From Methanolobus zinderi (lineage in GTDB: Archaea > Halobacteriota > Methanosarcinia > Methanosarcinales > Methanosarcinaceae): a DNA stretch of 64,000 nt. The stretch spans positions 2,533,332 through 2,597,331 of the forward strand of contig NZ_CP058215.1 in NCBI RefSeq assembly GCF_013388255.1. The letters are read 5' to 3'. This document shows positions 8,426 through 26,653 of this stretch, one piece after another (the stretch's first letter is position 1; each line of letters opens with the position of its first letter). The position numbers and the translations under genes are program-made. The notes under the pieces are model-generated. The model was not told the DNA's origin, did no database searches, and saw only the letters and a program-made list of their open reading frames with translations.

Positions 8426-9703
8426 TCAGGGACGATGCAAAAGCTGTTCATCGCCACCATGCCAGCTCATACGGGGCCTGATCCTGATGACATGCGTGCT
8501 TTCCGTGTTATCGTCCACTACAAGAGCAATTCCTCTTTCGGTACCCATTTTCTTTATGGAATCTCCGAAATTCTCACTCATATAAGTAGGTTTTACAGAC
8601 TCAAGTGCGAGAATATCGTCCTGAGAGGTTAGCCGGTGGCATATAACAACATCAGATTGAGAAAGTACATCCCTGTGCAGAGATGAAGGACGCTGTGTTG
8701 CCAGAACAAGTGAAAGACCCGGCTGGCGACCCTGTCTGAGCCATTCGTTCAGTAGCACATCTGATGAAAGTGTGTTCCCTTTTGCCGGAACGAACTGGTG
8801 AGCCTCGTCAATGAACATCCATACAATAGGGATTCCTTTTTCAGTAATCTCCTCACCCATAAGCATCCTTTCATGGGCCCGGCGGGATTCCAGTCTCCTG
8901 TGATAGATATCCCTTGCAAGAAAGCCTACAACCGCAGACCTGACCGAATCGTTTTTGATAGTGCTCACATCAATGACAGACAGGGTACCTCCTGCCACTA
9001 TATCGGAAATATCCATTCCGTTCCCGGCAAAAATACCCCATGACATGGCTGTCCTGAAATAGTTCTCCGCCGCACTTCTTGATACTATATCCGAGCGTTC
9101 GTCTTCAAGTATGTTATCCAGAATATCCTCAAAGGAAAAGTCTGACGAGCTTTCACGAAGTGCTTCAATGACCCTCACTATAAGAACACCCGTGGAAGAT
9201 ACCGGATCAAGTCCGAAAAGTTCGCACCACTGATAAGCATCGACCTGTGACAGGGGGATGGACATTGGTTTTACACTGATATTCCTTTTTCTGTACTCCT
9301 CTTCACTGCCGGCGGGAACATAGATTTCCGCGTTAAAGCCGGATGCTTCAAGATCCCAGTCAGAAAGGGAATCTGCCTGCACCACATTTTCCCTGGAAAA
9401 AGTCCAGAATATACCCATGGTATCAATAACAATGGATGCAAGATTCGTTTTAGCTTCATCGGGAAGCATCAGAAGCTCCTCTATAAGTACAGCCATGGTA
9501 TAGGACTTACCATAGCCCCTTTTACCACCGATAAGAACTGCATGCGGCCTCTGTACATCCAGTTTGACATCCGCACCGGAAGACCTGTCCAGTGCAAGAT
9601 ATCTTCCAAGATGGAGGAGAGCCTTATCCGATCTTCCGTCCCCTCCAAGAATATATTGTTTTTCCGACACGCCTGCACAAAATATCTCCGATGTATTTTC
9701 CAT
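8426..9703 (-). CDS. HerA/FtsK-superfamily ATPase (DUF87 type)
   Basis: The 425-aa P-loop ATPase has Walker A GGKRGYGKSYT (Lys 66), Walker B IVWMFIDEAHQF and the ATQRPSSL sensor motif typical of HerA-like ATPases. HerA proteins form hexameric rings that translocate DNA, usually with the nuclease NurA in end resection. No nurA, mre11 or rad50 neighbour is visible here, and the N-terminus is short (no long HAS-barrel), so it is probably a stand-alone DUF87-type ATPase of unknown role. AGGAT precedes the ATG at 9703. Confidence 0.85.
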   Translation of the reverse strand: MENTSEIFCAGVSEKQYILGGDGRSDKALLHLGRYLALDRSSGADVKLDVQRPHAVLIGGKRGYGKSYTMAVLIEELLMLPDEAKTNLASIVIDTMGIFWTFSRENVVQADSLSDWDLEASGFNAEIYVPAGSEEEYRKRNISVKPMSIPLSQVDAYQWCELFGLDPVSSTGVLIVRVIEALRESSSDFSFEDILDNILEDERSDIVSRSAAENYFRTAMSWGIFAGNGMDISDIVAGGTLSVIDVSTIKNDSVRSAVVGFLARDIYHRRLESRRAHERMLMGEEITEKGIPIVWMFIDEAHQFVPAKGNTLSSDVLLNEWLRQGRQPGLSLVLATQRPSSLHRDVLSQSDVVICHRLTSQDDILALESVKPTYMSENFGDSIKKMGTERGIALVVDDNTESTHVIRIRPRMSWHGGDEQLLHRP

Positions 9704-9875
9704 GTATCCTAAGAATTGTAAAGATTATAATAATTTTTCTTCTTGCATCAATAAATTATAAAACACGTTGAAAAAACAGACATAATACACGGGTAAATTC
9801 ACCATAAAAACATTTACAGCATACGTAAAAATCAGATACGGAATACTTATATAGAACTATATATATTACAGGTGC

Positions 9876-9994
9876 AGAGGAATCTCACACGATAATAATT
9901 CCCCCTCTGATGCATTGATTCTTTTTGGCTAAATGTATCAATACCCCCAAACATCACCCAACCATCATTATGCGAGATTCCTCTTTCCTCTCTT
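9876..9994 (+). ncRNA. Candidate small structured RNA
   Basis: The 323-base gap 9704-10026 has no ORF but a complete-looking RNA gene. A TATA box (CTTATATAG, about 9846-9854) lies 25 bases before 9876, where a perfect 11-bp stem begins (AGAGGAATCTC 9876-9886 with GAGATTCCTCT 9974-9984). A second stem, 7 of 8 pairs, continues it (9892-9899 with 9964-9971), and a hairpin ATTGAT/ATCAAT (9914-9919, 9937-9942) sits in the loop. Two runs of five C (9901-9905 and 9944-9948) stay unpaired. The 3' side is a pyrimidine tract (9980-9994), as at archaeal terminators. Strand is chosen from the TATA-stem spacing. It is not SRP, RNase P or rRNA by size or motif. Confidence 0.6.
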
Positions 9995-10026
9995 AGCAAT
10001 TTGTAAAGAAGACAGGACCATCCATT

Positions 10027-11436
10027 TTACTTTTCAATGGAAAGTATACCCCTTGCAGCAAGAACTCCGGTGGCTGCTGAGTTAACGAGGTCCCTGGACA
10101 GACCCGCACCATCCCCTGCTGCAAAGAGATTTCCAATACTTGTTTGCATTTTACTGTCAACCTGAAGTTTTATCGAGTAGAACTTGACCTCGGGGGCGTA
10201 CAGCAATGTAGAGTCGGAATTCACTCCGGGAATTATCTCATTGAGGACTTCCAGACCTTCTATAATATCCATGACCATCCTGTGCGGCAGAGCCATGGAA
10301 ATATCCCCCGGAGTGATATCTTTTAAGGTATTGACAACCGTGTTTCTCTCTATGCGTTTTTCCGTGGAACGCCTGCCTCTGCGCAGATCTCCCATCCTCT
10401 GAAGAACAGGTTTGCCACCACCGATAGTAGTTGCAAGTTTGGCCACGGACCTTGCATACCTGATTGTGTTTTCCATTGGCCGGGTCAGTTCCACGTGCAC
10501 GAGAAAGGCAAAATTTGTATTTTCGGACTCACTCCTGTGCATGGAATGGCCGTTTGTGGCAACAAAACCCTCGTATTCTTCCTTAACAACAAATCCATGT
10601 TCATTGGTGCAGAAGGTCCTGACAAAATCATCATAGCGCCTTGTATGGATGTGGAACTTCGGGTCATGATTGATTCTTGTGATAGGATCCATGATTATCG
10701 AAGGTACTTCAACTCTTACACCTATATCGACACCGCTGAACGAATAGAGGATCGAGTGTCTGTTCACCATCTCATTCACCCAGTCACAGCCAACCCTTCC
10801 GGGAGCGAGCAGGATATAGTTTGCACTAAGCCTTTTTCCATTTCCAAGCAGAACTCCGTTGCATACATTATCTTCTACAATAAGGTCTGCAACATCGGTA
10901 TTCAGAAGGAAATCAATACCCTTTGCTTCAAGATCCTGCTTGAAATTAGATATCAAGGCAATGGAATTATCCGAGCCGATGTGACGCTGCTTAATCTGAA
11001 TGAAGCTCGCACCCACGGACGCAGCTTTCCTCTCCAGGAATTCAACCTCATCTGCCGGAGGAGAAGAAATGTTATTGGTGGCACCATATTTCAGAAAGAT
11101 GCTGTCCACATATTCTACAAGCTCCCAGGCGCTTTCCTGGTCAGATGTGAAATCCGCAAGATTCCCACCGATATCAGGCCGCAGATTAAGGGTTCCGTCC
11201 GAGTATGCTCCCGAGCCCCCAACACCACGCAGTATCGAACATGGTTTGCAGTGCTGACATCCTTTCGTAGAGCTCATCGGGCATACCCTTTCATCTATAT
11301 CCCGACCTGCATCAATTACAAGGATTCTCAGCTCGGAGGATGTAAGCTCATGTGCTGCAAAGAGACCTGCCGGTCCCGCGCCTACTATAATGACATCATA
11401 ATCCCACTCGGTCAGTACCAGAAATATCACTTCCAC
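10027..11436 (-). CDS. FAD-dependent oxidoreductase (COG2509-type)
   Basis: This flavoprotein of about 469 aa has an N-terminal dinucleotide fold VIIVGAGPAGLFAAHEL and a C-terminal FAD-closing segment FAAGDGAGLSRDLV. A Cys-rich insertion, CPMSSTKGCQHCKPC, near residue 52 marks the group of uncharacterised NAD(FAD)-utilising dehydrogenases. Substrate unknown. Start: a GTG at 11436 opens the frame, but there is no clear ribosome site and the conserved part begins at about residue 12, so a slightly later start is possible. It follows purP by 42 bases on the same strand. Confidence 0.82.
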   Translation of the reverse strand: MEVIFLVLTEWDYDVIIVGAGPAGLFAAHELTSSELRILVIDAGRDIDERVCPMSSTKGCQHCKPCSILRGVGGSGAYSDGTLNLRPDIGGNLADFTSDQESAWELVEYVDSIFLKYGATNNISSPPADEVEFLERKAASVGASFIQIKQRHIGSDNSIALISNFKQDLEAKGIDFLLNTDVADLIVEDNVCNGVLLGNGKRLSANYILLAPGRVGCDWVNEMVNRHSILYSFSGVDIGVRVEVPSIIMDPITRINHDPKFHIHTRRYDDFVRTFCTNEHGFVVKEEYEGFVATNGHSMHRSESENTNFAFLVHVELTRPMENTIRYARSVAKLATTIGGGKPVLQRMGDLRRGRRSTEKRIERNTVVNTLKDITPGDISMALPHRMVMDIIEGLEVLNEIIPGVNSDSTLLYAPEVKFYSIKLQVDSKMQTSIGNLFAAGDGAGLSRDLVNSAATGVLAARGILSIEK

Positions 11437-26580: not shown

Positions 26581-26653
26581 CGCCCGAACCGGGATTCGAA
26601 CCCGGGTCGGAGCCTCGACAGGGCTCCATGATAGGCCTCTACACTATTCGGAC
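26581..26653 (-). tRNA. tRNA-Asp (GTC)
   Basis: A 73-nt cloverleaf on the minus strand: acceptor GTCCGAA with TTCGGGC and discriminator G; anticodon stem GAGCC/GGCTC with loop CTGTCGA, giving anticodon GTC; T arm CCGGG-TTCGAAT-CCCGG. CCA is not encoded. A TATA-like CTTTATATC at about 26701-26709 lies about 50 bases upstream, so it has its own promoter. Its 3' end borders the AT-rich island, a classic integration position. Confidence 0.95.

Follow-up and report, generated by a model that had tools for sequence, protein, structure and literature searches.

A predicted small RNA gene with conserved C-rich open strands in four genera of methanogens

In the window, the 64,000-nucleotide stretch of Methanolobus zinderi DNA analysed here, genes for a HerA-like (DUF87) ATPase (8426-9703, minus strand) and an FAD-dependent oxidoreductase (10027-11436, minus strand) enclose a gap that holds a predicted small RNA of about 110-125 nt on the plus strand (9876-9995). 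The ATPase gene lies upstream and is divergent, the oxidoreductase gene lies downstream and is convergent, and both served as synteny markers. A TATA box, CTTATATA (9846-9853, plus strand), is centred 27 nt 5' of the first GAGG base of the closing stem and is directly preceded by a BRE-like purine-rich stretch (9840-9845, plus strand). The predicted RNA starts near 9876 with the 5' strand of the closing stem P1, AGAGGAAUCUC (9876-9886), which is supported by fold and covariation and pairs perfectly over 11 bp with the 3' strand, GAGAUUCCUCU (9974-9984). Enclosed between these strands are the unpaired join J1 (9887-9907), with CCCCC at 9901-9905; the inner hairpin P2 with its variable loop (9908-9940), in which 9908-9916 pairs with 9932-9940 (UGAUGCAUU/AAUGUAUCA); and the unpaired join J2 (9941-9973), with CCCCC at 9944-9948 and CCC at 9957-9959. 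A pyrimidine-rich tail (9985-10003), conserved in place but not in sequence (60% identity), is the probable termination zone.

The MFE of positions 9870-9994 was -27.1 kcal/mol, against -16.5 ± 2.8 kcal/mol for 200 dinucleotide shuffles (z -3.8; 0 of 200 as low), and both CCCCC runs and the CCC run were unpaired in the MFE and the centroid structures alike. A sequence-only reading had described a TATA box, a perfect 11-bp closing stem, an inner hairpin and a pyrimidine-rich tail, all of which are borne out within 9846-9995, as is the single-strandedness of its two CCCCC runs. Its second stem, extending P1, survives in part: in the window's genome this stem is weak, with a few isolated pairs, and it is absent from the 14 closest-type relatives, but in other homologs (L018, L050-L052, L055, L058, L069, L073) P1 does extend by 6-8 bp past an internal loop of 1-3 nt. 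The single open reading frame over the RNA element, of 50 codons with a TTG start, runs antisense to it (9847-9999, minus strand) and is not conserved in relatives. Since no frame is conserved on either strand among 31 homologs, we rejected a protein-coding reading.

The TATA centre precedes the first P1 GAGG base by 25-30 nt in all 31 homologs, the box having been placed by eye in six of them (L007, L009, L011, L012, L014, L049), where the script chose a neighbouring AT-rich word. Because this distance is constant, transcription is expected to begin at the closing stem, in agreement with the sequence-only reading. The spacing, together with the position in the gap between the ATPase and FAD or purP genes, gives the RNA its own promoter in an intergenic region, as in archaeal intergenic sRNAs (itsRNAs). 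Between the TATA box and the expected start, many Methanolobus genomes have ATATGTAGGTG in common, which in ten genomes searched was found with an upstream TATA solely at the RNA gene; it is possibly an operator or start element. It occupies about -14 to -3 before P1 in L005, L007, L010, L013, L015 and L017, and the L016 variant, ATATGTAGGGG, is part of an inverted repeat, CCTAC-N6-GTAGG.

Blast against 60 relatives gave 18 strong homologs within Methanolobus, the window's own counted. A covariance model built from these 18 (R1) scored the window RNA at 105.6 bits (E 1.4e-23) and extended the matches to more Methanolobus genomes and to g25 and g4, two other Methanosarcinaceae genera; inspection of syntenic gaps added L069, L070 and L073, bringing in genus g23. 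A second model (R2) gave matches in 23 of 27 Methanolobus genomes, strong ones in four g4 and two g23 genomes, and weak ones in three genomes of g25; R1 alone matched a fourth genome of that genus. The covariance search across the Methanosarcinaceae that had been proposed as a check thus came out in favour of the gene, placing the RNA in Methanolobus and three further genera of the family. One homolog, in G026, lies at C1:1876715-1876827 on the minus strand. Searching 186 genomes of the order with R2 gave nothing further at E < 0.02. R1 and R2 had no convincing match outside g1, g4, g23 and g25, and hence none in the genera that genome size marks as large-genome Methanosarcina-like ones. A rescan of ten genomes with a permissive threshold gave no second convincing copy. 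We rejected the weak covariance matches L059 and L060, which have neither TATA box nor P1, and L019, which has no homologous structure. An Rfam scan of the window matched only a tRNA (26581-26653) and nothing above gathering score for the RNA, which speaks against a C/D box or other catalogued RNA, and a second scan gave chance-level matches only. Nor did Rfam, which includes RsaE, indicate homology to the RoxS/RsaE family.

Almost all homologs with comparable flanks have the HerA-like ATPase gene on one side of the RNA and the FAD oxidoreductase gene on the other. The exceptions touch either side. In L005, L009 and L017 the FAD gene is absent and purP stands in its place, and in L053 it is reduced to fragments, with the RNA kept in each; no ATPase was found beside the RNA in L058 and L073; and L054 matches neither flank. 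Because either flank can be missing with the RNA kept, neither neighbour accounts for it. In L011 (G007) the ATPase gene beside the RNA matches in pieces only (residues 5-49, 50-130 and 323-418) and seems to have been disrupted or deleted beside an intact RNA. The RNA is absent from the syntenic gap in two Methanolobus genomes, G012 and G011, and in the large-genome genus g11; loci whose syntenic gap lacks it include L078, L080 and L082. The gaps in G012 (L068) and G011 (L071) are otherwise syntenic, and since the FAD gene of G012 shares 88% identity with that of the window, the RNA seems to have been lost there recently and is not essential in that genome.

RNAalifold on the first 18 sequences found little covariation because these sequences are too alike. 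Covariation was counted on an alignment of 20 sequences from several groups (A3), which leaves out g25 because MAFFT misplaces its 5' end in alignment A2. On A3, P1 was paired in 94% of cells and scored 0.333 for covariation, whereas shuffles gave 0.163 ± 0.022 (0 of 500 as high, which is support and not a probability, as the shuffles ignore relatedness) and the slid stem at most 0.133. The duplex energy of P1 averages -20.8 kcal/mol with its own strand and -15.2 kcal/mol across groups, with none of 5000 random matchings as good. The strands themselves differ, as in GAGGAAUC/GAUUCCUC, GAGGUAU/AUACCUC (L070), GCGAGGUA/UGCCUCGC (L058, L073) and AGAGGAG/CUCCUCU (L069), and the inner part of the stem is swapped in relatives for CCUGCAU/AUGCAGG or CCCACU/AGUGGG.

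The open strands are about as conserved as the paired ones. Among 14 species identity is 100% in J1, 98% in J2 and 92-99% in the stems, falling to 66% in the hairpin loop and 60% in the tail. At unpaired core positions the share of G is 0-7% across all 31 homologs, each of which has two to four C-runs and lacks G-runs, so that several conserved single-stranded C-runs, a feature of RoxS/RsaE-type RNAs, are found in all of them; this C-rich, G-free character persists across groups though the exact sequence differs. Conservation of the joins, together with the absence of a kept frame, indicates that the C-rich open strands are selected as strands, not as code. The RNA is thus both structured and non-coding, as archaeal intergenic sRNAs are, with a fold, a covarying P1 and no kept frame. 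Promoter spacing, compensatory changes in the stems, synteny and presence in four genera strongly support the complete small-RNA gene first proposed for this gap, and we conclude that it is very probably a stand-alone small RNA gene representing a new family of archaeal intergenic sRNA. The sequence evidence supports gene, promoter and fold, the transcript itself being predicted, and indicates that the RNA is kept over a long time in related methanogens.

What such an RNA would act on was addressed at gene starts taken from about 17% of the window's own genome (376 starts) and about 14% of G024 (324 starts), defined as the longest open reading frames and so in some cases wrong. Relative to positions further upstream, G-runs were about 4-5 times commoner at -20..0 of genes in two species (GGGG in 23 of 374 against 4-7, and in 18 of 319 against 3-9), with GAGGG, GGGTG and GGAGG also enriched, so ribosome-binding sites are what the C-rich strands would mostly encounter in 5' regions. 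The earlier proposal of a regulator of mRNAs with GGAGG-type sites is at most compatible with these data: the conserved joins are CCCC/ACCC, matching GGGG/GGGU rather than GGAGG, and target prediction against ribosome sites, as had been suggested, showed J1 and J2 duplex energies at these 376 and 324 starts to be no better than those of shuffled joins. No shared target emerged either when degenerate 12-14-mers matching J1 and both halves of J2 were sought in ten genomes, which returned the RNA gene itself and scattered single matches. The strongest candidate target in the window's own genome was a VWA/Big_1 surface protein (L084:6821-12349), rejected as a shared target because a protein search found it in only 10 of 16 genomes, five of the six lacking genomes carrying the RNA. 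This genome has two large Big_1/VWA surface-type proteins (1842 aa and a 1987-aa frame) less than 15 kb apart, at L084:6821-12349 and G000:C1:20809-26739, and relatives of these large proteins occur in many, not all, Methanolobus genomes.

We suggest, leaning only slightly to this side, that the RNA is best read as an antisense regulator acting in trans on a limited set of mRNAs. On this reading a non-coding RNA of about 110-125 nt, transcribed on its own, would begin with the first base of P1, and P1 and the inner hairpin would keep two nearly G-free, C-rich strands open. Those strands could serve as short seeds (CCCC/CCCU and ACCC) for antisense pairing with G-rich stretches in the target mRNAs, some of them at ribosome-binding sites, and pairing would block translation or alter mRNA stability. 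The C-rich joins could in this way mask some ribosome-binding sites. We prefer the antisense reading because of its precedents, sRNA162 (PMC3510493), RoxS/FsrA (PMC10433868) and sRNA154/sRNA41 (PMC5867862). Against it count the start-pairing and shared-target results above, and also the near-identity over 50-odd unpaired bases, which exceeds the need of one short seed. A broader form, the one put forward in the sequence-only reading, in which an anti-Shine-Dalgarno-like RNA covers GGAGG-type sites on many mRNAs, would fit the enrichment of GGGG, GAGGG, GGGTG and GGAGG at -20..0 and a mild excess, seen for J1 in G024 alone, of sites below -14 kcal/mol (23 at starts, 14 inside genes); yet mean pairing of J1 and J2 at starts is close to that in gene-internal windows in both genomes and not above that of shuffled joins, the joins read CCCC/ACCC, not CCUCC, and GGGG lies within 25 nt of the start in only 23 of 376 own-genome starts, so we consider such general cover quite improbable.

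The main rival to the antisense regulator, itself unlikely, is a protein-binding decoy or ribonucleoprotein scaffold in which a protein, and not mRNAs, would recognise the C-rich bubble. The whole joins are conserved and not one seed, their C-rich, G-free character outlives the exact sequence between groups, and the start-pairing and ten-genome 12-14-mer searches found no conserved mRNA target, all of which favours this rival; but no conserved neighbour hints at a partner, either flank being dispensable, and it counts against this rival that we know of no archaeal C-rich-RNA-binding partner for such a role. A more specific proposal, in which the closed, C-rich bubble offers a surface that a translation or decay factor recognises and the RNA is an archaeal sponge or decoy with a logic like that of CsrB or 6S RNA, we regard as improbable. 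The oxidoreductase gene, on the opposite strand, has its end at 10027, roughly 30 bases past the RNA tail, and the 3' end of its mRNA may enter the RNA gene, which raises the idea of a cis-antisense regulator of this convergent mRNA; we give this very little credence, because the RNA is kept where purP replaces the FAD gene (L005, L009, L017) or a remnant is left (L053), and because plain antisense overlap does not need unpaired joins as conserved as the stems. Equally remote is a locus with no RNA gene, in which a near-palindromic DNA element or an untranslated remnant is conserved: P1 does render the DNA partly palindromic and the opposite strand gives a weak match, whereas compensatory changes, G-U pairs, the constant TATA distance and strand-specific C-richness all speak for an RNA.

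The RNA is new as a family without a match in Rfam, the RNA catalogue searched, and known in kind, as an archaeal intergenic sRNA. To our knowledge, work on archaeal sRNAs has seldom gone beyond a single genus. For this RNA there are an alignment and a covariance model, and its promoter and genomic place are fixed in four methanogen genera, so that expression, structure and targets become testable together, and the nearly fixed, G-free open strands make target choice by archaeal sRNAs directly addressable.

In Methanolobus psychrophilus R15, of the same genus as the window, 195 intergenic sRNAs have been mapped (PMC5378194); the part of that text available to us does not describe the window RNA, a homolog of which may be among the mapped start sites. 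The RoxS/RsaE and FsrA RNAs of Firmicutes, which direct several single-stranded C-rich regions at G-rich Shine-Dalgarno sites (PMC10433868), have C-rich single strands in common with the window RNA and are bacterial. Closer in kind are the intergenic methanogen sRNAs: sRNA162 of Methanosarcina mazei, found only in Methanosarcina, masks a ribosome-binding site with a single-stranded linker (PMC3510493), and for sRNA154 and sRNA41 masking of ribosome-binding sites is likewise reported (PMC5867862). The window RNA, with covariance matches confined to four genera of the family, is set apart from these three by description. Compared in that way, sRNA162 and sRNA154 are stem-loops acting via a linker or loops, whereas both open strands of the window RNA lie inside one closing stem; and whereas the linker is the most variable part of sRNA162, the open strands of the window RNA are among its most conserved parts.
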